The notes beneath the pieces are model-generated. The model worked only from the letters and a program-made list of their open reading frames with translations. It did not search any database and was not told the origin of the DNA. This document shows, one piece after another, positions 8,842 through 43,837 of a stretch of 64,000 bases of DNA. The stretch comes from Megascapheus bottae (Eukaryota > Chordata > Mammalia > Rodentia > Geomyidae). The DNA lies in NCBI GenBank assembly GCA_024803745.1, contig JANJXV010000153.1, forward strand, positions 1,054,001 through 1,118,000. The letters are read 5' to 3'. Every line of letters starts with the position of its first letter. Within the stretch, counting starts at the first letter, position 1. A program made the translations under genes and the position numbers.

Positions 8842-9189
8842 GGGTGTGTAAATATTTAGGATCGTTATGTCTTCCTGGAGGAAAGATCCCTTTAGTAGTA
8901 TGTAGTAACCTTCTTTGTCTTTTCTTACTAATTTTAGTTTGAAGTCTATTGTATCTGATATGAGGATGGCAACTCCAGCCTGTTTATGGGGGCAGTTAGC
9001 TTGATAGAGTTTATTCCAACCTCTCACTTTCAAAAGATGATTGTTTTGGGGTAAGATGTGTCTCTTGAAGACAGCAGAACGATGGCTCTTGAATTTCATC
9101 CAACTAGACAGCCTATGCCATTTAATTGGAGAGTTAAGTCCATTGATATTGAGAGTTAGGATTGAGAGATATTTATTAGTTACCACCAT
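8842..9189 (-). pseudogene. L1 ORF2 5' fragment (copy A), endonuclease
   Basis: The fragment starts at ATG 9189-9187 (MVVTNKYLSILTLNINGLNS). LNINGLNS carries the conserved active-site Asn of the APE-like endonuclease. A short deletion near 9090 relative to copy B changes the frame. The fragment ends at the array edge within TILNIYTP, so it lacks the rest of the nuclease and all of the reverse transcriptase. Confidence 0.9.
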
Positions 9190-9420
9190 TTTAAAAAGCT
9201 TTTAGTAGGGCCTGTGTCTTGACAGTTCTTGTGGTCCTTAGACGGTATGCAGTTTAGGTGCCATTTCTTTCCATATATTGCATTTATTTTGGTTTTGTAT
9301 GTATAGAGCATCTTTGAGAATTCTCTGTAATGTTGGTTTTGTTTCGACATATTGTTGCAGCTTTTCCCTGGAATGGAATGTTTTTATTGTTCCCTCAGTT
9401 ATGAATGAGAGCTTAGCTGG

Positions 9421-10421
9421 CTACAGTATTCTTGGTTGGTAGTTATTTGATTTAAGGGCATGACATATATGCTTCCAGTCACTTCGTGCTTGCATGGTCT
9501 CTGCTGAGAAATCTGGGGTTATTCTGATTGGTTTGCCTTTGTAGGTTACTGATCCCTTTTCCCTGGCTGCCTTTAGGATCTTTCCTTTCGTTTCTATTGA
9601 TCCAGTTCGGATCACAATGTGGCGGTGGGATGTTCGTTTCTGGTCAGGTCTGTTTGGGGTTCTAAAAGCTTCTCGTATCTGGATGGGCCTGCCCTTCTGG
9701 ATATTTGGGAAATTCTCTGAGATGATTCCCTGAAGTATATTTCCAATACCATTGACCTCTTCCTCCATGCCCTCCTCAATACCAACTAGCCTTAAATTAG
9801 GCTTCTTAATTGTATCTTGGACCTCCTGAAGCGCTCTGTCATATTTCCTAGATTTGGATTGACTCATTTTCTGTTCTTTATAATACCTAAATTATCTTCA
9901 GCCACGGAAATTCTCTCCTCTGCAATGTCTAACCTGCTATCAAAGCTATCTACTTTATTTTTCATCTCCCTTGCTTCTAAATGCTCACTTTTGATGCCTT
10001 GCATCCCTTGTTTTAGATCATGTATGGATTTCTTTATCTCCTTGATTTCCTTTTGAGTGGTTAGCTCAGTAGCTTCATTTTCTTTGGACATTTGCTGGAG
10101 TTTGGTCACGTTTTTATTTGTGGATTCTTTGAATTCATCCATCTTTCTTTGAAAAACCTTTATTATGGCCTCCTTTATGGCTTCTTCTTTTTTACTTATC
10201 ACCTTGTTTTTGCTTTCCTCTTGTTCAGGTATGGCTTCCTCCATTATCTCTTTCTTTATATTTTCACATTTTTCATTAATGATGTTTATCAATTGCATTT
10301 GTGTAGCAATTGGAAGACTCTCCTCTAGGTTTGTCAGTGACTGTTCCATTGTCTGTTTACATTGGGTGGGGGATGTTGTTTCTTGATTTGACATTTTTCT
10401 TGAGTTTCTTGTTCTGCCCAT
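9421..10421 (-). pseudogene. L1 ORF1 (copy A), frameshifted
   Basis: ORF1p is a trimeric nucleic-acid-binding chaperone that coats L1 RNA. The start MGRTRNSRKMSNQETTSPTQ lies at 10421, followed by a long Lys/Glu-rich coiled coil, an RRM-like region (KPNLRLVGIEEG) and a C-terminal domain (SHRHIVIRTGSIETKGKIL; ITPDFSAETMQARSDWKHIC). A 4-base deletion near 9880, relative to copy B, splits it into 185- and 148-codon frames. The frame ends in QPRIL and then TAG at 9421-9423. Downstream, in-frame PAKLSFITEG shows that the stop replaced a Tyr codon and cut off the last ~50 residues. Confidence 0.92.
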
Positions 10422-10981
10422 TTGAAAATGGGAGCAAGATTACTACTAAATACGATTATAGTTTTTCAGATATAACCAACCTAGACCTCTGTAGCTGGCA
10501 GACACTAGATGTTCACAAGTTTTGATTGGTATTATCACTCTTTCTTTTTGTGCACTTACATACCAGCCTAATACAACCACTGAAATGCGATTTATACCCA
10601 AAACAATAAGCCTCTCAATCCAATCTCTATTGTCTTTAAGTCCCTCTGAGCCTAGAGAATAATTAACCACCTACATATACAATATTGCTCAACAGCCATC
10701 AAGTGTAGATCCGTGCAGTATAAGGGTTGAAAGACGAGCAGAGGTCCAGAGATAGAAAAAAAGAATGAGAGAGGTCAGGGGAGGTGCAAGAGGATTAACG
10801 TAGGAGTGTAAGAATATTGTAGTAATGAAGAAAAGTTATAGCATAAGGATAACTGACATAAGTTGGTAAGTAGGTAGCATATTTCAGTACAAAGTTTGGA
10901 AAGTATTAGAATAAATCTTATGTGTTGCTGCACGACTAGCTCTTAGCCCAACCAGTGGCCTCACAGTGGACCATGGGATGG
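10422..10981 (-). promoter_or_regulatory. Putative L1 5'UTR (copy A)
   Basis: These 560 bases lie between the ORF1 start and the point where similarity to the L1-free X copy (55870-57232) stops. This makes 10981/10982 the best estimate for the L1 5' end. It recurs in each unit. It is AT-rich with no CpG island. An internal promoter would be expected here, but I recognise no YY1 site or other specific motif. Confidence 0.5.
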
Positions 10982-12359: not shown

Positions 12360-12720
12360 TTTTTTTTTCCATTTTTTATTGTAATTAGTAAAAGGGTTAG
12401 ATGATATTTGCCAGATAGAAAGTGCATTAATTCACATACATTGATACCCTTTCACATGTCTTGGTACCCATTTCCCTCCAACCCCACACCCCCAACCCGT
12501 CTTCGTTTTCCCCCCTTCCCTATCAAATTTCAAATATCCAAATACAAATGAATTCAATATATCAGATAACAAAGTGAGATACTATACCAATATGGGATAA
12601 CCAAGGGACAGCAGACGTGATGAGAGACAACATAGTACATTAAGGACAACAATCATTCATTATATGGCTTTTGTGTCAATATCCTGGAGGTCCTTTCAAT
12701 TAGCTTCACATTATATGGCC

Positions 12721-15700
12721 TTATATATGGCCTTTTGCTCTATTGACAATCTCTGCTAGTAGAGCCCAAGGTTTCAACTGATTATGACGAATGAGGTAAA
12801 CCAATGAGCCGAAGTTCCTTTGAGTCTGGCTTACTTCACTTAATATGATTTGTTCTAAGTCTTTCCATTTCCTAACAAATGGGGCGATGTCATTCTTTCT
12901 GACAGCAGCATAGAATTCCATTGTGCACAAATACCACAACTTGTTGATCCACTCATCAACTGAGGGACATCTGGGTTGGTTCCATATCTTTGCTATGGTG
13001 AATAGTGCTGCAATGAACATTGTTGTGCTAGTGGGTTTAGTATGCCCTTGTTTCTGGATTGTTGGGTAAATGCCAAGTACTGGAATTGCTGGGTCATAGG
13101 GGAGTTGTATGTTTAGCGTTTTGAGGCACTGCCTCACTGCTTTCCATAGTGGTTGAACGAGTTTGCACTCCCACCAACAGTGTAGTAGTGATCCCTCCTG
13201 ACCACATCCCCTCCAGCATCTGTTGTCATTCGTTTTCCTGATCCTGGCCATTCTAACTGGAGTTAGGTGGAATCTTAGACTTGTTTTGATTTGCATTTCT
13301 TTTACGACCAGAGATGTTGAGCATTTCTTCATGTGTCTATAGGACATTTTTGTTTCTTCTTCAGAGAAGACTCTCTTTAAGTCTTTGGCCCATTTTGTAA
13401 TGGGATGGGTGTTACTTTGGAGGTTAGTTTTGGAGTGATTCAATTTTTTGAGTTGTTGATATATTTTAGATATGAGGCCTTGTTCCGTTGTTTGGGTGGT
13501 GAATATCTTCTCCCACTCTGTAGGCTTCCTGATTAGTTTACTAGCTATATCCGTTGCCATACAAAAGCTCTGCAGTTTAATGCAGTCCCACTTATCCAGC
13601 CTTTCTCTGATTTGTTGTGATTCTTGGTCCTTATTAAGAAAGTTTCGACCTGTACCAAGGAGGCCTAGTGTATCTCCTATTCCTTCCTGTAAACTTTTCA
13701 GTGTGTCAGCTTTTACCTCCACGTCTTTGATCCATTTGGAGTTAATTCTAGTGCAAGGGGACAAAGAAGGATCCAACTTTAGTTTTCTGCAGGTGTTTAA
13801 AAAGTTCTGCCAGCACAACTTGTTGAAGAGGCTATCTTTATTCCATTCTATTTTTTTGGCTCCCTGGTCAAAGATTAGGTGGCCATAGGTCTGTGGTTTA
13901 ATATCTGGGTCCGCAGTTCTACTCCATTGGACTTCAGGCCTGTTCTTGTGCCAGTACCAAGCTGTTTTGAGAATTATAGCTCTGTAATAGAGCCTTAAGT
14001 TTGGAATTGAAATTCCTCCAGCGCTGTTCTTTCTGCTAAGAAGTGTTTTTGCTATACGGGGTCTTTTATTATTCCATATGAAATTTTGAATTGCCTCTTC
14101 TATGTCTTTAAAGAATGACATTGGGATGTTGATGGGTATTACATTGAATTTGTAGATAGCCCTTGGCAAGATTGTCATTTTCACAATGTTGCTGCTTCCA
14201 ATCCAGGAGCATGGGAGGTTTTTCCATTTCCTTAGTTCTGCTTTAATTTCCTTTTTTAGGGTTTTAAATTTTTCATCTAAACGGTCCTTTACATTCTTAG
14301 TTAAGCTAATTGCTAGGTACTTTATTTTCTTTGAGGCTATTGTGAAAGGATTTTCTTTCCTGATTATTGCCTCGTTCCTCTCAGTGTTGGCGTAAAGTAA
14401 GGCAGTTGATTTGTGAGGGTTGATTTTATGGCCTGCTACCCTTCCAAAGCTTTGAATCAGCTGAAGGAGCTTGGGAGTAGAGTCTACAGGATTCTTTAAA
14501 TAGAGAATCATGTCATCGGCAAAGAGGGATAGTTTTATTTCCTCTTTCCCTACTTGGATCCCCTTTATGCTTGCTTCTTGCCTTATTGCACTGCCTAGGA
14601 ATTCTAGTACTATGTTAAAAAGGAGTGGAGAGAGTGGGCATCCTTGTCTCGTTCCTGATTTTAGAGGGAATGGCTTTAGATCTTCACCATTAAGTATAAT
14701 ACTAGCAGTGGGTTTCTCATACACAGCCTTTATTACATTGAGAAATGTTCCATGGATTCCTAGTTTCTCCACATCTTTTAACATAAAGGGGTTTTGGATC
14801 TTGTCAAATGCCTTTTCCGCATCTATTGAGACAATCATGTGATTTTATCCCTGCTCCTGTTGATGTGTTGAATTATATTAATTGATTTGTGTATGTTGAA
14901 CCAGGTTTGCCTCCCTGTGATGAATCCAGTTTGATCATAGTGTATATTTTTTTGATTAGTTGTTTTAGATGGTTGGCCAGTATTTTGTTGAGAAGTTTTG
15001 CATCGAGGTTCATCAAAGAAATGGGTCTATAGATCTCTTTCTTTGATGAATCTCTGTCTGGTTTGGGGATGAGGGATATGCTGGCTTCACAGAATCAGTT
15101 TAGTAAAGAACCTTCATTTTCAATTTCGTTGAAGAGCTTGAGGAGTATTGGTGTGAGCTCTGCTTTGAAGACCTTATAGAATTCAGCTGTGAATCCATCT
15201 GGCCCTGGGCTCTTTTTAAGTGGAAGTTGTCTAATTTCCATTTCTATTTCAGAGCTTGAAATAGGTCTGTTGAGTTGGGTTAGCTCCTCTTCGTTCAGTG
15301 TGGGTATGTTGATATTGTCTAGGAATTCATCCATTTCTTCTAGATTCTCAAATTTGTTGGCGTAAAGGTTTGAGAAGTATTCCCTCATGTTATTCTGGAT
15401 CTTGGTAATTTCTGTCGTGATATTACCATTTTCATCTGCGATTTTGTTTATTTCGATATGCTCTCTTTTTTTTTGGTAAGATTTACTAAGGGCTTGTCAA
15501 TTTTGTTAATTCTTTCAAAGAACCAACTCCGTGTTTTGTTGATTCTTTCTATAGATTTTTTTTATTCCAAATCATTTAATTCTGCTTTGATTTTAATAAT
15601 TTGCTTTCTCCTAATGGGTTTAGGGTTGGTTTGTTGCTCTTTTTCCAGGAGGTTAAGGTGAGACATTAACTAGTTGGTTTGCCATTTTTCCAAGTTGCTG

Positions 15701-16616
15701 TTGTAGGCACTCAGCGCTATAAATTTTCCTCTGAGTACTGCCTTTGTTGTGTCCCTAAGGAGTTGATATTTGTGTGCTCCTTATTGTTAAATTTCATAAA
15801 CAGTTGGATATCTGTTCTGATCTCTTCGATTACCCATTGATTTTGATTCAACAATGTGTGGTTCAGTCTCCATGAGTTACAGGGTTTTCTTTGGTGGAGA
15901 TTTGTGTTCAGCTCCAATTTGATGCCTTTATGGTCTGAGAGTGTGCATGGAATAATTTCAGTGTTTCTGAATCTGTCCAGGTTTGCTTTATGGCCTAAGA
16001 TGTGGTCTATTTTGGAAAATGTTCCATGTGCTGCTGAGAAAAACGTATATTGTGGTGTTACTGGGTGGAATATTCTGCAGATGTCTGTTAGATCTAGTTG
16101 GTCTATATAGTTGTTCAGTTCTAAGGTTTCTCTTTTGAGTTTTTGCCTTGATGATCTGTCCATAGGTGAGAGTGGTGTGTTAAACTCACCAACAACCACT
16201 GTATTTCGATCTATGTATGGTTTCAGTGTAAGTAAAGTTTGCTTGATGAAGTTTGGAGCTCGGGGATTGGGTGTGTAAATATTTAGGATCGTTATGTCTT
16301 CCGCGAGGAAAGATCCCCTTAGTAGTATGTAGTAACCTTCTTTGTCTTTTCTTACTAATTTTAGTTTGAAGTCTATTGTATCTGATAGGAGGATGGCAAC
16401 TCCAGCCTGTTTATGGGGGCAGTTAGCTTGATAGAGTTTATTCCAACCTCTCCCTTTCAAAAGATGATTGTTTTTGGGTAAGATGTGTCTCTTGAAGACA
16501 GCAGAACGATGGCTCTTGCTTTTTGATCCAACTAGACAACCCATGCCGTTTAATTGGAGAGTTCAGTCCATTGATATTGAGAGTTAGGATTGAGAGATAT
16601 TTATTAGTTCCTACCA
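12721..16616 (-). pseudogene. L1 ORF2 (copy B), interrupted
   Basis: ORF2p combines an APE-like endonuclease with reverse transcriptase for target-primed integration. ATG lies at 16616. In the true frame the ETHL motif is intact, but a 1-base shift follows within the next ~10 codons. GDFN has become GEFN (16185-16187), altering a metal-binding Asp. Further breaks are a frameshift near 15720, TGA at 15095-15097 (in the N-x-FCEAS context) and a frameshift just before [15 protein letters not shown] (14838). The downstream 705-codon frame keeps the FADDMILYL catalytic motif, [13 protein letters not shown], and a C-terminal CX3CX7HX4C knuckle. The stop used by the other copies is TTG here (12775-12777 on the plus strand), so this frame runs on to 12721. 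Confidence 0.93.
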
Positions 16617-16848
16617 TTTTTAAAAGCTTTTAGTAGGGCCTGTGTCTTGACAGTTCTTGTGGTCCTTAGATGGTATGCTGTTTAGGTGCCTTTTCTTTAA
16701 CTATATTGCATTTATTTTGGTTTTCTATGTATAGAGCATCTTTGAGAATTCTCTGTAGTGTTGGTTTTGTTTCGACATATTGTTGCAGCTTTTCCCTGGA
16801 ATGGAATGTTTTTATTGTTCCCTCAGTTATGAATGAGAGCTTAGCTGG

Positions 16849-17853
16849 CTACAGTATTCTTGGTTGGTAGTTATTTGATTTAAGGGCATGACATATATGC
16901 TTGCAGTCACTTCGTGCTTGCATGGTCTCTGCTGAGAAATCTGGGGTTATTCTGATTGGTTTGCCTTTGTAGGTTACTGATCCCTTTTCCCTGGCTGCCT
17001 TTAGGATCTTTCCCTTCGTTTCTATTGATCCAGTTCGGATCACAATGTGGCGGTGGGATGTTCTTTTCTGGTCAGGTCTGTTTGGGGTTCTAAAAGCTTC
17101 TCGTATGTGGATGGGCCTGCCCTTCTGGATATTTGGGAAATTCTCTGAGATGATTCCCTGAAGTATATTGCCAATACCATTGACCTCTTTCTCCACGCCC
17201 TCCTCAATACCAACTAGCCTTAAATTAGGCTTCCTAATTGTATCTTGGACCTCCTGAAGCGCTCTCTCATATTTCCTAGATTTGGATTGACTCATTTTCT
17301 GTTCTTTCTCTATAATACCTAAATTATCTTCAGCCACAGAAATTCTCTCCTCTGCAATGTCTAACCTGCTATCAAAGCTATCTACTTTATTTTTCATCTC
17401 CCTTGCTTCTAATTGCTCACTTTTGATGCCTTGCATCTCTTGTTTTAGATCATGTATGGATTTCTTTATCTCCACGGTTTCCTTTTGAGTGGTTAGCTCA
17501 GTAGCTTTATTTTCTTTGGACATTTGCTGGAGTTTGGTCACGTTTTTATATGTGGATTCTATGAATTCATCCATCTTTCTTTGAAAAACCTTTATTATGG
17601 CCTCCTTTATGGCTTCTTCTTTTTCACTTATCACCTTGTTTTTGCTTTCCTCTTGTTCAGGTATGGCTTCCTCCATTATCTCTTTCTTTATATTTTCACA
17701 TTTTTCATTAATGATGTTTATCAATTGCATTTGTGTAGCACTTGGAAGACTCTCCTCTAGGTTTGCCAGTGACTGTTCCATTGTCTGTTTACATTGGGTG
17801 GGGGATGTTGTTTCTTGATTTGACATTTTTCTTGAGTTTCTTGTTCTGCCCAT
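16849..17853 (-). CDS. L1 ORF1 (copy B), 334 codons uninterrupted
   Basis: This is the only uninterrupted ORF1 in the array. A coiled coil spans about residues 30-190, followed by an RRM-like domain (KPNLRLVGIEEG near 215-230) and a C-terminal domain with SHRHIVIRTGS and ITPDFSAETMQARSD. It retains 4 bases (about 17304-17312) missing from copies A, C, D and E. It still ends at the shared TAG (16849-16851), with the family's final ~50 residues encoded beyond it. A protein of this frame would therefore be C-terminally short. I expect it to be non-functional or impaired, but it could be translated. Confidence 0.9.
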   Translation of the reverse strand: MGRTRNSRKMSNQETTSPTQCKQTMEQSLANLEESLPSATQMQLINIINEKCENIKKEIMEEAIPEQEESKNKVISEKEEAIKEAIIKVFQRKMDEFIESTYKNVTKLQQMSKENKATELTTQKETVEIKKSIHDLKQEMQGIKSEQLEAREMKNKVDSFDSRLDIAEERISVAEDNLGIIEKEQKMSQSKSRKYERALQEVQDTIRKPNLRLVGIEEGVEKEVNGIGNILQGIISENFPNIQKGRPIHIREAFRTPNRPDQKRTSHRHIVIRTGSIETKGKILKAAREKGSVTYKGKPIRITPDFSAETMQARSDCKHICHALKSNNYQPRIL

Positions 17854-18411
17854 TTGAAAATGGGAGCAAGATTACTACTAAATACGATTATAGTTTTTCA
17901 GATATAACCAACCTAGACCTCTGTAGCTGGCAGACACTAGATGTTCACAAGTTTTGATTGGTATTATCACTCTTTCTTTTTGTGCACTTACAGACCAGCC
18001 TAATACAACCACTGGCAAGCGATTTATACCCAAAAAATAAGCCTCTCAATCCAATCTCTATTGTCTTTAAGTCCCTCTGAGCCTAGAGAATAATTAACCA
18101 CCTACATATACAATATTGCTCAACAGCCATCAAGTGTATATCCGTGCAGTATAAGGGTTGAAAGACGAGCAGAGGTCCAGAGATAGAAAAAAAGAATGAG
18201 AGAGGTCAGGGGAGGTGCAAGAGTATTAACGTAGGAGTGTAAGAATATTGTAGTAATGAAGAAAAGTTATAGCATAAGGATAACTGACATAAGTTGGTAG
18301 TAGGTAGCATATTTCAGTACAAAGTTTGGAAAGTATTAGAATAAAACTTATGTGTTGGTACACGACTAGCTCTTAGCCCAACCAGTGGCCTCACAGTGGA
18401 CCATGGGATGG
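17854..18411 (-). promoter_or_regulatory. Putative L1 5'UTR (copy B)
   Basis: Equivalent to the segment in copy A, with a few single-base differences and small deletions. No specific factor site is recognised. Confidence 0.45.
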
Positions 18412-19786
18412 ATCTGTTTTTCTTGTCTACGTTGAGGGAAATGGGTATTTCACAAGATGCAGAAGCGAAGATTTCAGAAGCAAATGCTGTGAGTGAATTA
18501 GCTCGTAAAAAGCATTTTTATTTTCTTTTATCTTTCTGCCAGTCTTGGGGCTTGAATTCAGGGCCTGAGCACTGTCCTCGGGTTTTCTCAAGTCTAGCCC
18601 TCTGCCACTTGAGCCACAGTGCCACATCTAGATTTTCTATCTATGTGGTACTGAGCAATCAAACCCAGATCTTCATGGATGCTAGGCAAGCACTCTACCA
18701 CTATGACAAACTCTCAACCCTGACATAGTAATTATAAAGTCACCATCATCATCATCATCATCATATCCAAATATCCTTTCTCCTACAAAGAATGAACACT
18801 TAACTGTGTCTAATGCTTTTTTTTAATTTCACTAATTCTTCTGTGTTTTTCCCTCTTGCATGTTTTACACATGACAGCAAAGCTAATCATCAGGAAAAAA
18901 TTGATTAGGATACAGAAACCTAATAATATCCTAGTAGATTGACGTCAAAAATATGTGCAAGATGCCCTGTGTGTTTGACCTAGTGGGAGAGTCCTTGGCT
19001 ACCAAGCAGTAAGCCTCAGGTTTGATTCCTCATTACCACATACATAGAAAACGCTGCAAGTGGTGCTGTGGCTCGGTGGGACAGCTAAAGCCTAAAGAAA
19101 GCCCAAGAACAATGTTCACACTCTGAGGTCAAGTCCCAAGACTAGCAAAAACAAAAATAATTCGACAAGGGGCAAAATGCAGGCAGAGAAGGCACTGTGA
19201 AGCAAATGTTTTGTAAAGGATGAGGGCAATATTGACCCTTAAGTTTGGATCTTACCTAAGAAAGTCTCCTTGAGCCTGAGACCAGACTGGTAGTTGGGCC
19301 TAGTGGAAGACATTGGGATTGGACAAATAAAGTGTGCTGTATACTACATCCACATGTATATTGTGAGATTGGAGGAGAGATTCAGCCTCCAGTATGTCTT
19401 TGGTGAGGTCTTTTGTGAGCAAGGATCTTTGGTCATTGGGCCCTGAAAGGTGACCCTGCCTCCCTCACAATGGAACAGAATATGGAACCCTGGTAACCAA
19501 GCCACTGTAACTAACAACCAGCTCAAGCCAGCTCACTTGGCCTGTGGCTCAGGAGGAAGAAAGATGTTGCTGTGCTGTTGCCAAAGGTCAGGAAACTCGA
19601 GTCTCAGGCATGGAAGTTGTGGATGTCTTACTCGGAGATGTACATGCTAGATCATTGCCAAGCCACAAATCCAATATAACAGAACTTTCTCTAAGAAGAA
19701 GGCCAGGAAAATCCAGGGCAACCAGATGAGGTAAATTTCTAAGAAGAAATGTATTTGACCCCATCATCCTCCCCACACACTACAAC
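18412..19786 (-). repeat. X segment, unit 2
   Basis: Same composition as unit 1: two ID-ID SINEs and a shorter ATC tract (about 18742-18764). It ends exactly at the A-tract of L1 copy C. Confidence 0.9.
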
Positions 19787-20203
19787 TTTCTTTTTTTTCA
19801 TTTTTTTATTGTAATTAGTAAAAGGGTTAGATGATATTTGCCAGATAGAAGGTGCATTAATTCACATACATTGATACCCTTTCACATGTCTTGGTACCCA
19901 TTTCCCTCCAACCCCACACCCCCCACCCGTCTTCGTTTTCCCCCCTTCCCTATCAAATTTCAAATATCCAAATACAAATAAATTCAATATATCAGATAAC
20001 AAATGAGATACTATACCAATATGGGATAACCAAGGGACAGCAAGCGAGATGAGAGACAACATAGTATATTAAGGACAACAATCATTCATTATATGGCTTT
20101 TGTGTCAATATCCTGGAGGTCCTTTCAATTAGCTTCACATTATATGGTCTTATATATGGCCTTTTGCTCTATTGCCAATCTCAGCTAGTATAGCCCAAGG
20201 TTT

Positions 20204-24043: not shown

Positions 24044-24274
24044 TTTTAAAAGCTTTTAGTAGGGCCTGTGTCTTGACAGTTCTTGTGGTCCTTAGATGGT
24101 ATGCTGTTTAGGTGGCATTTCTTTCCCTATATTGCATTTATTTTGGTTTTCTATGTATAGAGCATCTTTGAGAATTCTCTGTAGTGTTGGTTTTGTTTCG
24201 ACATATTGTTGCAGCTTTTCCCTGGAATGGAATGTTTTTATTTTTCCCTCAGTTTTGAATGAGAGCTTAGCTGG

Positions 24275-31471: not shown

Positions 31472-31702
31472 TTTTAAAAGCTTTTAGTAGGGCCTGTGTC
31501 TTGACAGTTCTTGTGGTCCTTAGATGGTATGCTGTTTAGGTGCCATTTCTTTCCCTATATTGCATTTATTTTGGTTTTCTTTGTATAGAGCATCTTTGAG
31601 AATTCTCTGTAGTGTTGGTTTTGTTTCGACATATTGTTGCAGCTTTTCCCTGGAATGGAATGTTTTTATTGTTCCCTCAGTTATGAATGAGAGCTTAGCT
31701 GG

Positions 31703-32703
31703 CTACAGTATTCTTGGTTGGTAGTTATTTGATATAAGGGCATGACATATATGCTTCCAGTCACTTCGTGCTTGCATGGTCTCTGCTGAGAAATCTGGGG
31801 TTATTCTGATTGGTTTGCTTTTGTAGGTTACTGATCCCTTTTCCCTGGCTGCCTTTAGGATCTTTCCCTTCGTTTCTATTGATCCAGTTTGGATCACAAT
31901 GTGGCGGTGGGATGTTCTTTTCTGGTCAGGTCTGTTTGGGGTTCTAAAAGCTTCTCGTATCTGGATGGGCCTGCCCTTCTGGATATTTGGGAAATTCTCT
32001 GAGATGATTCCCTGAAGTATATTTCCAAATCCATTGACCTCTTTCTCCACGCCCTCCTCAATACCAACTAGCCTTAAATTAGGCTTCCTAATTGTATCTT
32101 GGAACTCCTGAAGCGCTCTCTCATATTTCCTAGATTTGGATTGACTCATTTTCTGTTCTTTATAATACCTAAATTATCTTCAGCCACAGAAATTCTCTCC
32201 TCTGCAATGTCTAACCTGCTATCAAAGCTATCTACTTTATTTTTCATCTCCCTTGCTTCTAATTGCTCACTTTTGATGCCTTGCATCCCTTGTTTTAGAT
32301 CATGTATGGATTTCTTTATCTCCTTGATTTACTTTTGAGTGGTTAGCTCGGTAGCTTTATTTTCTTTGGACATATGCTGGAGTTTGGTCACGTTTTTATT
32401 TGTGGATTCTTTGAATTCATCCATCTTTCTTTGAAAAACCTTTATTATGGCCTCCTTTATGGATTCTTCTTTTTCACTTATCACCTTGTTTTTGCTTTCC
32501 TCTTGTTCAGGTATGGCTTCCTCCATTATCTCTTTCTTTATATTTTCACATTTTTCATTAATGATGTTTATCAATTGCATTTGTGTAGCAATTGGAAGAC
32601 TCTCCTCTAGGTTTGCCAGTGACTGTTCCATTGTCTGTTTACATTGGGTGGGGGATGTTGTTTCTTGATTTGACATTTTTCTTGAGTTTCTTGTTCTGCC
32701 CAT
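31703..32703 (-). pseudogene. L1 ORF1 (copy D), frameshifted with extra stop
   Basis: A private GAA-to-TAA change after ELTTQK (32329) ends the coiled-coil frame at 124 codons. The shared 4-base deletion separates the C-terminal 148-codon frame (31703-32149), which ends at the shared TAG. Confidence 0.92.
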
Positions 32704-33263
32704 TTGAAAATGGGAGCAAGATTACTACTAAATACGATTATAGTTTTTCAGATATAACCAACCTAGACCTCTGTCGCTGGCAGACACTAGATGTTCACAA
32801 GTTTTGATTGGTATTATCACTCTTTCTTTTTGTGCACTTACAGACCAGCCTAATACAACCACTGATAAGCGATTTATACCCAAAACAATAAGCCTCTCAA
32901 TCTAATCTCTATTATCTTTAAGTCCCTCTGAGCCTAGAGAATAATTAACCACCTACATATACAATATTGCTCAACAGCCACCAAGTGTAGATTCGTGCAG
33001 TATAAGTGTTGAAAGACGAGCAGAGGTCCAGAGATAGAAAACAAGAATGAGAGAGGTCAGGGCAGGTGCAAGAGGATTAACGTAGGAGTGTAAGAATATT
33101 GTAGTAATGAAGAAAAGTTATAGCATAAGGATAACTGACATAAGTTGGTAAGTAGGTAGCATATTGGAGTACAAAGTTTGGAAAGTATTAGAATAAAACT
33201 TATGTGTTGCTGCACGACTAGCTCTTAGCCCAACCAGTGGCCTCACAGTGGACCATGGGATGG
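32704..33263 (-). promoter_or_regulatory. Putative L1 5'UTR (copy D)
   Basis: It shares small variants with copy E (for example ctctgtcgctgg in place of ctctgtagctgg), consistent with D and E being close relatives in this region. Confidence 0.45.
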
Positions 33264-33591
33264 ATCTGTTTTTCTTGTCTACGTTGAGGGAAAGGGGTAT
33301 TTCACAAGATGCAGAAGCGAAGATTTCAGAAGCAAATGCTGTGAGTGAATTAGCTCGTAAAAAGCATTTTTATTTTCCTTTAATTTTCTGCCAGTCTTGG
33401 GGCATGAATTCAGGGCCTGAGCACTGTCCTCGGGTTTTCTCAAGTCTAGCCCTCTGCCACTTGAGCCACAGTGCCAAATCTAGATTTTCTATCTATGTGG
33501 TACTGAGCAATCAAACCCAGATCTTCATGGATGCTAGGCAAGCACTCTACCACTACGCCAAACTCTCAACCCTGACATAGTAATTATAAAG

Positions 33592-33634
<43 letters not shown>

Positions 33635-34381
33635 ATACATATTAAATGCTGGAAGTGGTGCTGTGGCTCGGTGGGACAGCTAAAGCCTAAAGAAAGCCCA
33701 AGAACAATGTTCACACTCTGAGGTCAAGTCCCAAGACTAGGAAAAACAAAAAAAATTCGACAAGGGGCAAAATGCAGGCAGAGAAGGCACTGTGAAGCAA
33801 ATGTTTTGTAAAGGATGAGGGCAATATTGACCCTTAAGTTTGGATCTTACCTAAGAAAGGCTCCTTGAGCCTGAGACCAGACTGGTAGTTGGGCCTAGTG
33901 GAAGACATTGGGATTGCACAAATAAGGTGTGCTGTATACTACATCCACATGTATATTGTGAGACTGGAGGAGAGATTCAGCCTCCAGTATGTCTTTGGTG
34001 AGGTCTTTTGTGAGCAAGGATCTTTGGTCATTGGGCCCTGAAAGGTGACCCTGCCTCCCGCACATTGGAACAGAATATGGAACCCTGGTAACCAAGCCAC
34101 TGTAACTAACAACCAGCTCAAGCCAGCTCACTTGGCCTGTGGCTCAGGAAGAAGAAAGATGTTGCTGTGCTGTTGCCAAAGGTCAGGAAACTCGAGTCTC
34201 AGACATGGAAGTTGTGGATATCTTACTCGAAGATGTACATGCTAGATCATTGCCAAGCCACAAATCCAGTATAACAGAACTTTCTCTAAGAAGAAGGCCA
34301 GGAAAATCCAGGGCAACCAGATGAGGTAAATTTCTAAGAAGAAATGTATTTGACCCCATCATCCTCCCCACACACTACAAC
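33264..34381 (-). repeat. X segment, unit 4 (deleted form)
   Basis: It is about 258 bases shorter than units 1-3. The deletion joins an expanded ATC tract (about 33593-33633) to atacatattaaatgctggaa, removing the DNA between the microsatellite and the middle of the plus-strand ID-ID SINE. Unit 5 has the same junction. The L1-free copy has the full arrangement, so the deletion is the derived state. Confidence 0.92.
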
Positions 34382-34799
34382 TTTCTTTTTTTTTCATTTT
34401 TTATTGTAATTAGTAAAAGGGTTAGATGATATTTGCCAGATAGAAGGTGCATTAATTCACATACATTGATACCCTTTCACATGTCTTGGTACCCATTTCC
34501 CTCCAACCCCACACCCCCCACCCATCTTGGTTTTCCCCCCTTCGCTATCAAATTTCAAATATCCAAATACAAATAAATTCAATATATCAGATAACAAAGT
34601 GAGATACTATACCAATATGGGATAACCAAGGGACAGCAAGCGAGATGAGAGACAACATAGTACATTAAGGACAACAATCATTCATTATATGGCTTTTGTG
34701 TCAATATCCTGGAGGTCCTTTCAATTAGCTTCACATTATATGGCCTTATATATGGCCTTTTGCTCTATGGACAATGTCTGCTAGTAGAGCCCAAGGTTT

Positions 34800-37700
34800 C
34801 TACTGATTATGACGAATGAGGGAAACCACTGAGCCTAAGTTCCTTTGAGTCTGGCTTACTTCACTTAATATGATTTGTTCTAAGTCTTTCCATTTCCTAA
34901 CAAATGGGGCGATGTCATTCTTTCTGACAGCAGCATAGAATTCCATTGTGTACAAATACCACAACTTGTTGATCCACTCATCAACTGAGGGACATCTGGG
35001 TTGGTTCCATATCTTTGCTATGGTGAATAGTGCTGCAATGAACGTTGTTGTGCTAGTGGGTTTAGTATGCCCTTGTTTCTGGATTGTTGGGTAAATGCCA
35101 AGTAGTGGAATTGCTGGGTCATAGGGGAGTTGTATGTTTAGCGTTTTGAGGCACTGCCGCACTGCTTTCCATAGTGGTTGAACGAGTTTGCACTCCCACC
35201 AACAGTGTAGTAGTGATCCGTCCTGACCACATCCACTCCAGCATCTGTTGTCATTCGTTTTCCTGATCCTGGCCATTCTAACTGGAGTTAGGTGGAATCT
35301 TAGACTTGTTTTGATTTGCATTTCTTTTATGACCAGAGATGTTGAGCATTTCTTCATGTGTCTATAAGCCATTTTTGTTTCTTCTTCAGAGAAGACTCTC
35401 TTTAAGTCTTTGGCCCATTTTGTAATGGGATGGGTGTTACTTTGGAGGTTAGTTTTGGAGTGATTCAATTTTTTGAGTTGTTGATATATTTTAGATATGA
35501 GGCCTTGTTCCGTTGTTTGGGTGGTGAAGATCTTCTCCCACTCTGTAGGCTTCCTGATTAGTTTACTAGCTATATCCGTTGCCATACAAAAGCTCTGCAG
35601 TTTAATGCAGTCCCACTTATCCAGCCTTTCTCTGATTTGTTGTGATTCTTGGTCCTTATTAAGAAAGTTTCGACCTGTACCAAGGAGGCCTAGTGTATCT
35701 CCTATTCCTTCCTGTAAACTTTTCAGTGTGTCAGCTTTTACCTCCACGTCTTTGATCCATTTGGAGTTAATTCTAGTGCAAGGGGACAAAGAAGGATCCA
35801 ACTTTAGTTTTCTGCAGGTGTTTAACCAGTTCTGCCAGCACAACTTGTTGAAGAGTCTATCTTTCTTCCATTCTATTTTTTTGGCTCCCTGGTCAAAGAT
35901 TAGGTGGCCATAGGTCTGTGGTTTAATATCTGGGTCCGCAGTTCTACTCCATTGGACTTCAGGCCTGTTCTTGTGCCAGTACCAAGCTGTTTTGAGAATT
36001 ATAGCTCTGTAATAGAGCCTTAAGTTTGGAATTGAAATTCCTCCAGCGCTGTTCTTTCTGCTAAGAAGTGTTTTTGCTATACGGGGTCTTTTATTATTCC
36101 ATATGAAATTTTGAATTGCCTCTTCTATGTCTTTAAAGAATGACATTGGGAAGTTGATGGGTATTACATTGAATTTGTAGATAGCCCTTGGCAAGATTGT
36201 CATTTTCACAATGTTGATTCTTCCAATCCAGGAGCACGGGAGGTTTTTCCATTTCCTTAGTTCTGCTTTAATTTCCTTTTTTAGGGTTTTAAAGTTTTCA
36301 TCTAAACGGTCCTTTACATTCTTAGTTAAGCTAATTGCTAGGTACTTTATTTTCTTTGAGGCTATTGTGAAAGGATTTTCTTTCCTGATTATTGCCTCGT
36401 TCCTCTCAGTGTTGGCGTAAAGTAAGGCAGTTGATTTGTGAGGGTTGATTTTATGGCCTGCTACCCTTCCAAAGCTTTGAATCAGCTCAAGGAGCTTGGG
36501 AGTAGAGTCTATAGGATTCTTTAAATACAGAATCATGTCATCTGCAAAGAGGGATAGTTTTATTTCCTCTTTCCCTACTTGGATCCCCTTTATGCTTGCT
36601 TCTTGCCTTATTGCACTCCCTAGGAATTCTAGTACTATGTTAAAAAGGAGTGGAGAGAGTGGGCATCCTTGTCTCGTTCCTGATTTTAGAGGGAATGGCT
36701 TTAGATTTTCACCATTAAGTATAATACTAGCAGTGGGGTTCTCATACACAGCCTTTATTACATTGAGAAATGTTCCATGGATTCCTAGTTTCTCCACATC
36801 TTTTAATATAAAGGGGTTTTGGATCTTGTCAAATGCCTTTTCCGCATCTATTGAGACAATCATGTGATTTTATCCCTGCTCCTGTTGATGTGTTGAATTA
36901 TATTAATTGATTTGTGTATGTTGAACCAGCTTTGCCTCCCTGTGATGAATCCAGTTTGATCATAGTGTATATTTTTTTTGATGAGTTGTTGTAGACGTTT
37001 GGCCAGTATTTTGTTGAGAAGTTTTGCATCGAGGTTCATCAAAGAAATGGGTCTATAGATCTCTTTCTTTGATGAATCTCTGTCTGGTTTGGGGATGAGG
37101 GATATGCTGGCTTCACAGAATCAGTTTAGTAAAGAACCTTCATTTTCAATTTCGTTGAAGAGCTTGAGGAGTATTGGTGTGAGCTCTGCTTTGAAGACCT
37201 TATAGAATTCAGCTGTGAATCCATCTGGCCCTGGGCTCTTTTTAAGTGGAAGTTGTCTAATTTCCATTTCTATTTTAGAGCTTGAAATAGGCCTGTTGAG
37301 TTGGGTTAGCTCTTCTTGGTTCAGTGTGTGTATGTTAATATTGTCTAGGAATTCATCCATTTCTTCTAGATTCTCAAATTTGTTGGCGTAAAGGTTTGAG
37401 AAGTATTCCCTCATGATATTCTGGATCTTGGTAATTTCTGTCGTGATATTACCATTTTCATCTGCGATTTTGTTTATTTCGATATGCTCTCTTCTTTTTT
37501 CGATAAGATTTGCTAAGGGCTTGTCAATTTTGTTAATTCTTTCAAGAACCAACTCCTTGTTTTTTTGATTCTTTCTATAGTTTTTTTATTCCAAATCATT
37601 TAATTCTGCTTTGATTTTAATAATTTGCTTTCTCCTAATGGGTTTAGGGTTGGTTTGTTGCTCTTTTTCCAGGAGGTTAAGGTGAGACATTAACTAGTTG

Positions 37701-38641
37701 GTTTGCCATTTTTCCAACTTGGTGTTGTAGGCACTCCGCGCTATAAATTTTCCTCTGAGTACTGCCTTTGTTGTGTCCCTAAGGAGTTGATATTTGTGTG
37801 CTCCTTATTGTTAAATTTCATAAACAGTTGGATATCTGTTCTGATCTCTTCGATTACCCATTGTTTTTGATTCAACAATGTGTGGTTCAGTCTCCATGAG
37901 TTACAGGGTTTTCTTTGGTGCAGATGTGTGTTCAGCTCCAATTTGATGCCTTTATGGTCTGAGAGTGTGCATGGAATAATTTCAGTGTTTCTGAATCTGT
38001 CCAGGTTTGCTTTATGGCCTAAGATGTGGTCTATTTTGGAAAATGTTCCATGTGCTGCTGAGAAAAACGTATATTGTGGTGTTACTGGGTGGAATATTCT
38101 GCAGATGTCTGTTAGATCTAGTTGGTCTATATAGTTGTTCAGTTCTAAGGTTTCTCTGTTGAATTTTTGCCTTGTTGATCTGTCCATAGGTGAGAGTGGT
38201 GTGTTAAACTCACCAACAATCACTGTGTTTCGCTCTATGTATGGTTTCAGTGTAAGTAAAGTTTGCTTGATGAAGTTTGGAGCTCCGGGATTGGGTGTGT
38301 AAATATTTAGGATTGTTATGTCTTCCGGGAGGAAAGATCCCTTTAGTAGTATGTAGTAACCTTCTTTGTCTTTTCTTACTAATTTTAGTTTGAAGTCTAT
38401 TGTATCTGATATGAGGATGGCAACTCTAGCCTGTTTATGGGGGCAGTTAGCTGGATAGAGTTTATTCCAACCTCTCACTTTCAAAAGATGATTGTTTTTG
38501 GGTAAGATGTGTCTCTCGAAGTCAGCAGAACGATGGCTCTTGCTTTTTGATCCAACTAGACAACCTATGCCATTTAATTGGAGAGTTAAATCCATTGATA
38601 TTGAGAGTTAGGATTGAGAGATATTTATTAGTTCCTACCAT
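34800..38641 (-). pseudogene. L1 ORF2 (copy E), interrupted
   Basis: ATG lies at 38641. The TGA at 38522-38524 is shared with C and D, GEFN is present, and the TGA at 37121 and the frameshift before [11 protein letters not shown] are shared with B, C and D. The 687-codon C-terminal frame is open from 36863 to 34800, with an intact FADDMILYL and all knuckle Cys/His residues ([18 protein letters not shown]). PLLGIYP is shared with F, in place of PVLGIYP. Confidence 0.92.
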
Positions 38642-38872
38642 TTTTAAAAGCTTTTAGTAGGGCCTGTGTCTTGACAGTTCTTGTGGTCCTTAGATGGTAT
38701 GCTGTTTAGGTGTCATTTCTTTCCCTATATTGCATTTATTTTGGTTTTCTATGTATAGAGCATGTTTGAGAATTCTCTGTAGTGTTGGTTTTGTTTCGAC
38801 ATATTGTTGCAGCTTTTCCCTGGAATGGAATGTTTTTATTTTTCCCTCAGTTATGAATGAGAGCTTAGCTGG

Positions 38873-39872
38873 CTACAGTATTCTTGGTTGGTAGTTATTT
38901 GATATAAGGGCATGACATATATGCTTCCAGTCACTTCGTGCTTGCATGGTCTCTGCTGAGAAATCTGGGGTTATTCTGATTGGTTTGCCTTTGTAGGTTA
39001 CTGATCCCTTTTCCCTGGCTGCCTTTAGGATCTTTCCTTTCGTTTCTATTGATCCAGTTCGGATCACAATGTGGCGGTGGGATGTTCTTTTCTGGTCAGG
39101 TCTGTTTGGGGTTCTAAAAGGTTCTCGTATCTGGATGGGCCTGCCCTTCTGGATATTTGGGAAATTCTCTGAGATGATTCCCTGAAGTATATTTCCAATA
39201 CCATTGACCTCTTTCTCCACGCCCTCCTCAGTACCAACTAGCCTTAAATTAGGCTTCCTAATTGTATCTTGGACCTCCTGAAGCGCTCTCTCATATTTCC
39301 TAGATTTGGATTGACTCATTTTCTGTTCTTTATAATACCTAAATTATCTTCAGCCACGGATATTCTCTCCTCTGCAATGTCTAACCTGCTATCAAAGCTA
39401 TCTACTTTATTTTTCATCTCCCTTGCTTCTAATTGCTCACTTTTGATGCCTTGCATCCCTTGTTTTAGATCATGTATGGATTTCTTTATCTCCTTGATTT
39501 CCTTTTGCGTGGTTAGCTCAGTAGCTTTATTTTCTTTGGACATTTGCTGGAGTTTGGTCACGTTTTTATTTGTGGATTCTTTGAATTCATCCATCTTTAT
39601 TGAAAAACCTTTATTATGGCCTCCTTTATGGCTTCTTCTTTTTCACTTATCACCTTGTTTTTGCTTTCCTCTTGTTCAGGTATGGCTTCCTCCATTATCT
39701 CTTTCTTTATATTTTCACATTTTTCATTAATGATGTTTATCAATTGCATTTGTGTAGCAATTGGAAGACTCTCCTCTAGGTTTGCCTGTGACTCTTCCAT
39801 TGTCTGTTTACATTGGGTGGGGGATGTTGTTTCTTGATTTGACATTTTTCTTGAGTTTCTTGTTCTGCCCAT
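38873..39872 (-). pseudogene. L1 ORF1 (copy E), double frameshift
   Basis: A private 1-base loss near 39597 and the shared 4-base deletion near 39330 split ORF1 into frames of 91, 92 and 148 codons. The last ends at the shared TAG (38873-38875). Confidence 0.92.
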
Positions 39873-40432
39873 TTGAAAATGGGAGCAAGATTACTACTAA
39901 ATACGATTATAGTTTTTCAGATATAACCAACCTAGACCTCTGTCGCTGGCAGACACTAGATGTTCACAAGTTTTGATTGGTATTATCACTCTTTCTTTTT
40001 GTGCACTTACATACCAGCCTAATACAACCACTGATAAGCGATTTATACCCAAAACAATAAGCCTCTCAATCTAATCTCTATTATCTTTAAGTCCCTCTGA
40101 GCCTAGAGAATAATTAACCACCTACATATACAATATTGCTCAACAGCCACCAAGTGTAGATTCGTGCAGTATAAGTGTTGAAAGACGAGCAGAGGTCCAG
40201 AGATAGAAAACAAGAATGAGAGAGGTCAGGGCAGGTGCAAGAGGATTAACGTAGGAGTGTAAGAATATTGTAGTAATGAAGAAAAGTTATAGCATAAGGA
40301 TAACTGACATAAGTTGGTAAGTAGGTAGCATATTGGAGTACAAAGTTTGGAAAGTATTAGAATAAAACTTATGTGTTGCTGCACGACTAGCTCTTAGCCC
40401 AACCAGTGGCCTCACAGTGGACCATGGGATGG
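39873..40432 (-). promoter_or_regulatory. Putative L1 5'UTR (copy E)
   Basis: Nearly identical to copy D over its length; no specific factor sites recognised. Confidence 0.45.
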
Positions 40433-40760
40433 ATCTGTTTTTCTTGTCTACGTTGAGGGAAAGGGGTATTTCACAAGATGCAGAAGCGAAGATTTCAGAA
40501 GCAAATGCTGTGAGTGAATTAGCTCGTAAAAAGCATTTTTATTTTCCTTTAATTTTCTGCCAGTCTTGGGGCATGAATTCAGGGCCTGAGCACTGTCCTC
40601 GGGTTTTCTCAAGTCTAGCCCTCTGCCACTTGAGCCACAGTGCCAAATCTAGATTTTCTATCTATGTGGTACTGAGCAATCAAACCCAGATCTTCATGGA
40701 TGCTAGGCAAGCACTCTACCACTACGCCAAACTCTCAACCCTGACATAGTAATTATAAAG

Positions 40761-40800
<40 letters not shown>

Positions 40801-41547
40801 ATACATATTAAATGCTGGAAGTGGTGCTGTGGCTCGGTGGGACAGCTAAAGCCTAAAGAAAGCCCAAGAACAATGTTCACACTCTGAGGTCAAGTCCCAA
40901 GACTAGGAAAAACAAAAAAAATTCGACAAGGGGCAAAATGCAGGCAGAGAAGGCACTGTGAAGCAAATGTTTTGTAAAGGATGAGGGCAATATTGACCCT
41001 TAAGTTTGGATCTTACCTAAGAAAGGCTCCTTGAGCCTGAGACCAGACTGGTAGTTGGGCCTAGTGGAAGAAATTGGGATTGGACAAATAAGGTGTGCTG
41101 TATACTACATCCACATGTATATTGTGAGACTGGAGGAGAGATTCAGCCTCCAGTATGTCTTTGGTGAGGTCTTTTGTGAGCAAGGATCTTTGGTCATTGG
41201 GCCCTGAAAGGTGACCCTGCCTCCCTCACAATGGAACAGAATATGGAACCCTGGTAACCAAGCCACTGTAACTAACAACCAGCTCAAGCCAGCTCACTTG
41301 GCCTGTGGCTCAGGAGGAAGAAAGATGTTGCTGTGCTGTTGCCAAAGGTCAGGAAACTCGAGTCTCAGGCATGGAATTTGTGGATGTCTTACTCGAAGAT
41401 GTACATGCTAGATCATTGCCAAGCCACAAATCCAGTATAACAGAACTTTCTCTAAGAAGAAGGCCAGGAAAATCCAGGGCAACCAGATGAGGTAAATTTC
41501 TAAGAAGAAATGTATTTGACCCCATCATCCTCCCCACACACTACAAC
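40433..41547 (-). repeat. X segment, unit 5 (deleted form)
   Basis: Same deletion junction as unit 4, with a slightly shorter ATC tract (about 40762-40800). It joins the A-tract of copy F. Confidence 0.92.
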
Positions 41548-43837
41548 TTTCTTTTTTTTTCATTTTTTTATTGTAATTAGTAAAAGGGTTAGATGATATT
41601 TGCCAGATAGAAGGTGCATTAATTCACATACATTGATACCCTTTCACATGCCTTGGTACCCATTTCCCTCCAACCCCACACCCCCCACCTGTCTTGGTTT
41701 TCCCCCCTTCCCTATCAAATTTCAAATATCCAAATACAAATAAATTCAATATATCAGATAACAAAGTGAGATACTATACCAATATGGGATAACCAAGGGA
41801 CAGCAAGCGAGATGAGAGACAACATAGTCCATTAAGGATAACAATCATTCATTATATGGCTTTTGTGTCAATATCCTGGAGGTCCTTTCAATTAGGTTCA
41901 CATTATATGGCCTTATATATGGCCTTTTGCTCTATTGACAATCTCTGTTAGTAGAGCCCAAGGTTTCTACTGATTATGACGAATGAGGGAAACCACTGAG
42001 CCTAAGTTCCTTTGAGTCTGGCTTACTTCACTTAATATGATTTGTTCTAAGTCTTTCCATTTCCTAACAAATGGGGCGATGTCATTCTTTCTGACAGCAG
42101 CATAGAATTCCATTGTGTACAAATACCACAACTTGTTGATCCACTCATCAACTGAGGGACATCTGGGTTGGTTCCATATCTTTGCTATGGTGAATAGTGC
42201 TGCAATGAACATTGTTGTGCTAGTGGGTTTAGTAGGCCCTTGTTTCTGGATTGTTGGGTAAATGCCAAGTAGTGGAATTGCTGGGTCATAGGGGAGTTGT
42301 ATGTTTAGCGTTTTGAGGCACTGCCGCACTGCTTTCCATAGTGGTTGAACGAGTTTGCACTCCCACCAACAGTGTAGTAGTGATCCCTCCTGACCACATC
42401 CCCTCCAGCATCTGTTGTCATTCGTTTTCCTGATCCTGGCCATTCTAACTGGAGTTAGGTGGAATCTTAGACTTGTTTTGATTTGCATTTCTTTTATGAC
42501 CAGAGATGTTGAGCATTTCTTCATGTGTCTATAGGCCATTTTTGTTTCTTCTTCAGAGAAGACTCTCTTTAAGTCTTTGGCCCATTTTGTAATGGGATGG
42601 GTGTTACTTTGGAGGTTAGTTTTGGAGTGATTCAATTTTTTGAGTTGTTGATATATTTTAGATATGAGGCCTTGTTCCGTTGTTTGGGTGGTGAAGATCT
42701 TCTCCCACTCTGTAGGCTTCCTGATTAGTTTACTAGCTATATCCGTTGCCATACAAAAGCTCTGCAGTTTAATGCAGTCCCACTTATCCAGCCTTTCTCT
42801 GATTTGTTGTGATTCTTGGTCCTTATTAAGAAAGTTTCGACCTGTACCAAGGAGGCCTAGTGTATCTCCTATTCCTTCCTGTAAACTTTTCAGTGTGTCA
42901 GCTTTTACCTCCACGTCTTTGATCCATTTGGAGTTAATTCTAGTGCAAGGTGACAAAGAAGGATCCAACTTTAGTTTTCTGCAGGTGTTTAACCAGTTCT
43001 GCCAGCACAACTTGTTGAAGAGGCTATCTTTCTTCCATTCTATTTTTTTTGGCTCCCTGGTCAAAGATTAGGTGGCCATAGGTCTGTGGTTTAATATCTG
43101 GGTCCGCAGTTCTACTCCATTGGACTTCAGGCCTGTTGTTGTGCCAGTACCAAGCTGTTTTGAGAGTTACAGCTCTGTAATAGAGCCTTAAGTTTGGAAT
43201 TGAAATTCCTCCAGCGCTGTTCTTTCTGCTAAGAAGTGTTTTTGCTATACGGGGTCTTTTATTATTCCATATGAAATTTTGAATTGCCTCTTCTATTTCT
43301 TTAAAGAATGACATTGGGATGTTGAGGGGTATTACATTGAATTTGTAGATAGCCCTTGGCAAGATTGTCATTTTGACAATGTTGATTCTTCCAATCCAGG
43401 AGCACGGGAGGTTTTTCCATTTCCTTAGTTCTGCTTTAATTTCCTTTTTTAGGGTTTTAAAGTTTTCATCTAAACGGTCCTTTACATTCTTAGTTAAGCT
43501 AATTGCTAGGTACTTTATTTTCTTTGAGGCTATTGTGAAAGGATTTTCTTTCCTGATTATTGCCTCGTTCCTCTCAGTGTTGGCGTAAAGTAAGGCAGTT
43601 GATTTGTGAGGGTTGATTTTATGGCCTGCTACCCTTCCAAAGCTTTGAATCAGCTCAAGGAGCTTGGGAGTAGAGTGTATAGGATTCTTTAAATACAGAA
43701 TCATGTCATCTGCAAAGAGGCATAGTTTTATTTCCTCTTTCCCTACTTGGATCCCCTTTATGCTTGCTTCTTGCCTTATTGCACTGCCTAGGAATTCTAG
43801 TACTATGTTAAAAAGGAGTGGAGGGAGTGGGCATCCT
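41548..43837 (-). mobile_element. L1 copy F, 5' part missing at array edge
   Basis: It contains the 3'UTR and ORF2 from reverse transcriptase to the C-terminus (frames 43024-43704 and 41967-43064, separated by one extra T near 43050). ORF1 and the start of ORF2 are absent. Similarity stops at 43837 within codons that precede the FADD motif in sense order. This looks like an ordinary 5'-truncated L1, but its 3' side is joined to X5 like every other unit, so it is part of the array. Confidence 0.93.

Follow-up and report, generated by a model that had tools for sequence, protein, structure and literature searches.

A probable two-level macrosatellite in Megascapheus bottae: tandem L1 elements with a putative giant target-site duplication, carried in a duplicated KRAB zinc-finger block

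How do near full-length L1 elements come to lie head to tail, and is the arrangement confined to one locus? A sequence-only reading of the window (the whole 64-kb stretch of DNA analysed here) had described an array of at least four complete and two partial L1 units. K-mer offsets and self-BLAST of the window confirm this array, with direct repeats spanning 8842-43837 and comprising four complete units (10982-40432) flanked by two partial ones. The five landmarks of that reading (10982, 18412, 25837, 33264 and 40433) all proved, on unit BLAST, to be exact starts of a segment that we call X, and their spacings of 7430, 7425, 7427 and then 7169 bp agree with its period of 7.43 kb, later 7.17 kb. 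One unit consists of a 6.05-kb L1 on the minus strand and 1,384 bp of host DNA, X. The reduced final spacing reflects a 258-column alignment gap, beside a TCA microsatellite, that is common to the X copies of units 4 and 5 (u4, u5). The statement that there is no intervening DNA holds if X is counted as part of the unit, but not between the L1s themselves, which are separated by 1,381-1,384 bp of non-L1 DNA in units 1-3 and by 1,121-1,124 bp in units 4 and 5. The parts of the array are as follows.

8842..43837, minus strand (L1 sense): whole (L1-X)n array, four complete and two partial units (self-BLAST; unit BLAST).
8842..10981, minus strand: left partial unit, the initial 2.14 kb of an L1 (5' part, ORF1 and beginning of ORF2), truncated by the left array junction; 97.2% identical to unit positions 5288-7430, with the junction also present on contig C52.
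10982..12365, no strand: unit 1 copy of X, 1,384 bp of host DNA that we interpret as a giant L1 target-site duplication; its ends are the L1 5' end and poly(A) end, and it is uninterrupted in the C195 and X' copies (see below).
12366..18411, minus strand: L1 of unit 1, 6,046 bp, with an ORF1 of 334 aa at 16849-17853 and an interrupted ORF2.
18412..25836, minus strand: unit 2, with X at 18412-19792 and L1 at 19793-25836.
25837..33263, minus strand: unit 3, with X at 25837-27218 and L1 at 27219-33263.
33264..40432, minus strand: unit 4, with X, carrying a deletion, at 33264-34387 and L1 at 34388-40432.
40433..43837, minus strand: right partial unit, in which X carries the deletion of unit 4 (40433-41553) and is followed by the final 2.28 kb of an L1 (41554-43837), truncated by the right array junction.

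Such large repeats are difficult to assemble and the evidence here is assembled sequence, as would suit an artefact in which one or two units were falsely expanded. However, the complete units are 97.65-98.59% identical and differ pairwise by 105-168 substitutions; therefore, the array is not a copied read. Units 4 and 5 also have a deletion in common, and many contigs of the assembly searched (2.84 Gb, 2,786 contigs) contain the structure. Because the units differ by 1.4-2.35% and the structure is found on many contigs, assembly error is an unlikely source of the array; false expansion was rejected on these grounds, and we give it almost no credence.

The L1s of the array measure 6,044-6,046 bp and have a recognisable ORF1 and reverse transcriptase (RT). 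ORF1 matches Pfam Transposase_22 (E=6e-26), and ORF2 contains an RT domain (PF00078, RVT_1; E=2.2e-26) and an Exo_endo_phos match that is right at the cut-off (E=2.7e-5); hence, the elements have the LINE-1 combination of an ORF1 with an L1 RBD-like domain and an ORF2 with endonuclease and RT. None of the four complete units has an intact ORF2. Three of its stops are common to units 1-4, and two of these are also present in a unit on C52. A dispersed L1 on contig C5, which served as the outgroup for this comparison and is itself interrupted elsewhere, lacks the two shared stops within its extent. As the stops are common to the units, the units spread at the DNA level. From these stops we infer that the L1 was dead before the L1-X copies spread.

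The nature of X is central to the origin of the unit. All five X copies in the window begin at the identical base after the L1 5' end, and the boundaries of X coincide exactly with the two ends of the L1 (5' and poly(A)), such that the same host segment lies on either side of the L1. At the junction, the L1 3' end, which is poly(A)-like, joins the target at a site of the TCTT/g type. Within X of unit 1 there are SINE-like stretches at 11108-11290 and 11540-11729, and the SINEs resemble those of kangaroo rats and their relatives. Segments related to X occur elsewhere as uninterrupted host DNA, one of them in the window.

55864..57220, minus strand: X', an inverted paralogue of X (83%), without L1 and continuous with host flanks.

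X' is uninterrupted at 29 of the 30 fetched loci that were compared with the unit (28 to position 1384 and one to 1378). At a related locus, C195, X also runs uninterrupted between host flanks and is 91.9-92.9% identical to the array copies; its left flank, X and right flank are collinear with their X' counterparts (84.7%, 85.2% and 87.2%, respectively), and the C195 and X' flanks have no match within the array. With a difference of 7-8% from the array X, C195 is a relative of the target and not the founder site; it and the X' loci thus present the unoccupied segment, with its flanks, in relatives of that site.

It is also conceivable that X belongs to the L1 itself, as either a 5' UTR of great length or a 3' transduction, and that L1-X spread by retrotransposition. 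L1 and X do occur together at all eight loci of one comparison and at nearly all of those in a second, both junctions are present in thousands of copies, and a lone 595-bp piece of X plus L1 3' end is present on C5. This C5 piece, however, lacks poly(A) at its X end and sits inside another L1. A 3' transduction has a poly(A) at the far end and short target-site duplications around the whole, whereas X runs straight into the 5' end of the next L1. The tailless C5 piece and the host-X-host arrangement at C195 and the X' loci led us to reject a long 5' UTR or 3' transduction, and the common ORF2 stops and an array that is cut inside L1 at both ends led us to reject spread by retrotransposition; we consider this explanation highly improbable. 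An LTR-like element was dropped as a candidate because X paralogues have common flanks past both ends. X can best be understood as the giant target-site duplication left by a single founder L1; relatives of the founder locus (native flank-X-L1-X-native flank) were found, but not the locus itself.

The arrangement is not confined to the window. A genome search for further L1-X junctions, as the sequence-only reading had proposed, yielded 13,621 exact matches to the L1-5'/X junction, counting both strands of the whole assembly, together with 11,851 exact copies of X 30-mers; reversed-pattern controls gave 0 in both cases. If every junction marks one unit, the satellite totals about 101 Mb. A caution for L1 counts from this genome is that they are in part a product of amplification at the DNA level and not of jumping. 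The exact right end of the window's array (a junction 29-mer) is present in 1,777 copies (control, 0). Among the matches listed, C52 contains runs of 1 to 23 units (gaps of up to 3 units bridged), so that unit number varies between arrays of this one genome, and one- or two-unit spacing is also found on C54, C149, C171, C198 and C270. Kilobase units lying head to tail in variable number, and the junction count, support the proposed macrosatellite with a monomer of L1 plus host DNA, and the presence of other tandem loci upholds its status as a distinct kind of satellite. That reading was right but understated, as there are two further layers: the giant, target-site-duplication-like X and a larger KRAB zinc-finger block. 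Units in the window are no closer to one another than to other loci, and only units 4 and 5 group together among them in a tree of X. Within-array X identity on C149 (99.44%) equals that between C149 and C198 (99.43%). Judged from these comparisons, local homogenisation is not general.

The block around the array is marked by three features.

1546..3032, minus strand: exon region for the C2H2 zinc fingers of the block's KRAB-ZNF gene (1549-2193 matches Pfam zf-H2C2_2 at E=4.5e-47).
5935..6066, minus strand: exon with approximate ends, from the reading frame, which we take to be KRAB-A from its KRAB motif.
61514..62880, plus strand: start of the next block copy, equivalent to window 1-1368 at 97.8% (self-BLAST).

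The C2H2 exon has an in-frame stop between fingers, which suggests that the window's KRAB-ZNF copy is a pseudogene; the identical stop is present in the next block copy, whose zinc-finger exon lies just right of the window (window-equivalent 65114). The array starts ~2.8 kb upstream of the KRAB exon in the gene sense. A 31-mer of this exon (at 6024) has 4,035 exact copies, and the left array junction and its host flank are unbroken on C52 (96.8% over window 6738-9759). Among 30 listed KRAB matches on the C52 plus strand, 19 are followed by a first X at 4.83-4.98 kb (4,958 bp in the window; chance, 1.5%) and 11 have no X at the expected distance. KRAB and C2H2 exons thus lie together in a duplicated block in the window, as in KRAB-zinc-finger segmental duplications, with the C2H2 exon repeated in the next block and KRAB at the expected distance in those 19 cases. 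Of 49 spacings that separate neighbouring right junctions among the matches listed, 27 come within 0.1 unit of 34.3 kb + n x 7.425 kb (chance, 20%), but the 34.3-kb offset was picked after viewing those spacings and 10 of these 27 belong to the n = 0 class, which makes the p of 6e-8 too strong; 17 of 39 fit without this class, and 22 of the 49 do not fit. An open period scan of these spacings, with no fixed offset, peaked at 7,160 (R 0.413) and not at 7,425 (R 0.400; median, 0.226). A joined-flank search found no array-free block among 40 scored of 1,290 candidates; 39 of the 40 matches cover the left half (one being 4 bases longer) and the other, the window's own, the right half.

We consider it very probable that these observations describe a two-level macrosatellite, in which an L1-X array born from a target-site duplication is carried in a repeatedly duplicated KRAB-ZNF block. 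One L1 would have inserted with a 1,384-bp target-site duplication, giving X-L1-X, as the uninterrupted sites in two relatives suggest. The X copies, as kilobase direct repeats, could then have permitted unequal homologous exchange, or circle excision and reinsertion, to yield (L1-X)n. A piece of array broken inside L1 at both ends would next have been placed at its present position 2.8 kb upstream of the KRAB exon. Block and array were duplicated together well over a thousand times, the copies lying on many contigs and both strands, and array length would have changed largely by whole units, presumably through unequal exchange between arrays. An unlikely alternative is that arrays were seeded many times by amplifying extrachromosomal L1-X circles that integrated at random phases. 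Array ends inside L1 (8842, 43837, and unit position 3049 beside LTR-like sequence at C52:2.0 Mb), the C5 piece as a tailless insertion, and near-identical units on C171 and C198, which fit fresh local amplification, are consistent with such circles. However, 1,777 places have the identical right junction and the left junction is common with C52; therefore, many arrays descend from one placement. Moreover, the C52:2.0-Mb array may be a rearranged block, because block DNA also forms its right flank (97.6% to window 52241-53916).

Under the reading of a single placed and duplicated array, L1-X is most likely a satellite of a passive or selfish kind, providing homology for further block duplication, with no protein function needed. 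More tentatively, and with somewhat less than even confidence, the array may have been the engine: a self-expanding satellite, born from a target-site duplication, whose inter-array exchange drove explosive KRAB-ZNF block duplication. A dead retroelement would then power the growth of a gene family that normally silences retroelements. Satellite growth tied to KRAB-ZNF gene duplication is testable in sister species. The locus would also offer a traceable satellite birth, with a founder insertion, an exchange-enabling repeat and >13,000 exact junction copies.

In humans, macrosatellites are known from few loci. Two of these, D4Z4 and DXZ4, likewise have kilobase units in variable-copy tandem arrays (PMC3018141, PMC3081327); unlike them, the L1-X unit is a near-full-length L1 plus an apparent target-site duplication and its array end recurs 1,777 times. 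A literature search within open-licence papers, to the extent of the text available, found no published description of the L1-X repeat. PROsat of Phodopus roborovskii is also a rodent satellite attributed to LINE-1, but its table entry gives only the LINE-1 link (PMC6947457). In young mouse KRAB-zinc-finger clusters, KZFP blocks grow by segmental duplication, carrying retroelements along, and recombination between elements has been proposed as a driver; the portions consulted stress ERVs and do not mention a tandem L1 array, whereas the blocks described here carry an L1-X array with a recurring end (PMC11952569, PMC12597820). Giant L1 target-site duplications in NER-deficient cells resemble X in their kilobase length (5 bp to 5.3 kb; median, 1,495 bp), and the authors regard such repeats as prone to recombine (PMC5223499). 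Those inserts are new, in cultured cells and expected to be short-lived, whereas L1-X would have been amplified in the germ line. L1-X looks like a natural counterpart of the giant target-site duplications from repair-deficient cells.

Direct repeats extend across window 8842-43837 in a self-comparison, and the landmarks that the sequence-only reading had placed at 10982, 18412, 25837, 33264 and 40433 proved to be the exact starts of X, the host-DNA part of each unit. The four complete units (u1-u4) measure 7430, 7425, 7427 and 7169 bp; each contains 6,044-6,046 bp of minus-strand L1, joined in u1-u3 to an X of 1,381-1,384 bp of non-L1 DNA. An alignment gap of 258 columns in X is common to the short u4 and the right partial unit, u5. 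Pairwise identity among the complete units is 97.65-98.59% (105-168 substitutions per pair).

The boundaries of X coincide exactly with the L1 start and the L1 poly(A) end. An inverted paralogue, X' (window 55864-57220), is 83% identical to X and has the same two ends, but runs on into host flanks. At 35 of the best 40 places among 84 candidates the X' flank was complete or almost complete, and X' is uninterrupted in 29 of the 30 fetched loci, to unit position 1384 in 28 and to 1378 in one; in the remaining locus (L068) it is broken internally by an L1-like stretch. The most divergent among the X' flank matches, on contig C195, has an X 91.9-92.9% identical to the three full-length window copies; its flanks are collinear with those of X' and have no match in the array. 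In L1 sense the C195 locus reads GAAAGCACAC/AAGAAAGTTGTAG ... X ... GAGAAAAAGAGAT/TTCGTATC; in the array, the L1 poly(A) stands at the position of the first slash and the L1 5' end at that of the second. The simplest account of these sequences is that X is a 1,384-bp target-site duplication.

ORF1 of u1 is open (334 aa) and matches Pfam Transposase_22, while a 687-aa piece of ORF2 in u4 matches Pfam RVT_1. Three ORF2 stops lie at identical positions in u1-u4: one follows QRQYSEENL, one follows IENEGxLLN and one immediately precedes an 11-residue motif. A unit on contig C52 carries the first and third, the motif of the second being unmatched in that unit. A dispersed L1 on contig C5 extends over the sites of the second and third stops and lacks both; it is interrupted at other places. 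The array L1 reads GEFNTPLS at a site where active L1s have GDFNTPLS. Because the stops are common to the units and two are absent from the C5 element, the array L1 was already dead by the time these units were copied.

Searches of the whole assembly with exact 30-mers matched the L1-5'/X junction 13,621 times (6,967 + 6,654) and the X end 11,851 times (6,141 + 5,710); neither reversed-pattern control had any copy. Positions were available for about the first 100 places per pattern among the matches listed. On the C52 plus strand, at least 123 units occur among the matches listed, 103 of them in runs of two or more; capture-recapture (94 and 90 matches, 66 common) suggests about 128. If each junction represents one 7.4-kb unit, the 13,621 copies would occupy about 101 Mb, or 3.5% of the 2.84-Gb assembly, which is only an estimate because short pieces exist, for example on C5. 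There, a lone 595-bp piece (L039 7860-8454) consists of part of X and the L1 3' end. It is located at the 3' terminus of an older L1 in inverted orientation and carries no poly(A) at its X end, which makes it a tailless DNA insertion.

The right junction, where the array ends inside L1 at window 43837, has 1,777 exact copies (955 + 822; control, 0), with about 7.7 L1-5'/X junctions for each array right end. On C52, an unbroken match (L077) to window 6738-9759 includes the left junction, at 8842, and its host flank. A zinc-finger exon recurs just right of the window (L075, 98.2%) and window 1-1368 is repeated at 61514-62880; the window thus approximates one block of a larger repeat, which includes a KRAB exon:

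window ~5935-6066: KRAB exon (KRAB-A)

A 31-mer from this exon (window 6024) has 4,035 exact copies in the whole genome. The KRAB-ZNF expansion is very large in its own right. The copies of this 31-mer are more than twice as numerous as array right ends. Among the matches listed on the C52 plus strand, 19 of 30 KRAB matches have the first X following at the distance seen in the window, against 1.5% expected by chance. No array-free block was found among the best 40 of 1,290 joined-flank candidates. The same in-frame stop is present in the zinc-finger exon at window 1546-2442 and in the next block (L075 1114-2000), so both copies look dead. The next block copy is split in two by about 2.2 kb (window 62881 to window-equivalent 65113) that has no counterpart at window 1368 and contains L1 fragments and a TC-rich stretch. 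The block spacer holds a 176-aa open frame (window 53433-53960, minus strand) with no match in Pfam.

Among the matches listed, 27 of 49 neighbour spacings of right junctions below 100 kb fit 34.3 kb + n x 7.425 kb; the computed p of 6e-8 is too strong, because the offset was picked from these very spacings and the n = 0 class supplies ten of the 27 fits. With that class removed, 17 of 39 spacings fit, versus 20% by chance. An open period scan of these spacings peaked at 7,160.

Layers of repetition, common junctions, common ORF2 stops and uninterrupted X sites are all observed in the one genome assembly analysed. Two X copies flanking one L1 may have made unequal exchange possible, and exchange within and between arrays would then have altered array length and block number. 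In a non-random sample of loci, namely those matching the X of the window best, identity within arrays exceeds that between arrays at C171, C198 and C270. For C149, X identity is tied (99.44 within versus 99.43 to C198), with L1 identity slightly higher within; in the window array, identity within does not exceed that between arrays. In the X tree, window units are scattered apart from u4/u5, and C149 units intermingle with C54 and C129 units. The array in the window has the look of an older mosaic. An array with different ends lies at about 2.0 Mb on C52 (L041 5200-5394, L042 7027-7329): its left end adjoins LTR-like sequence, and at its right end X breaks off at position 1114, where block DNA resembling window 52241 takes over.

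In NER-deficient cells, L1 target-site duplications are reported to range from 5 bp to 5.3 kb, with a median of 1,495 bp; the same paper remarks that recombination is favoured between large repeats lying close together (PMC5223499).
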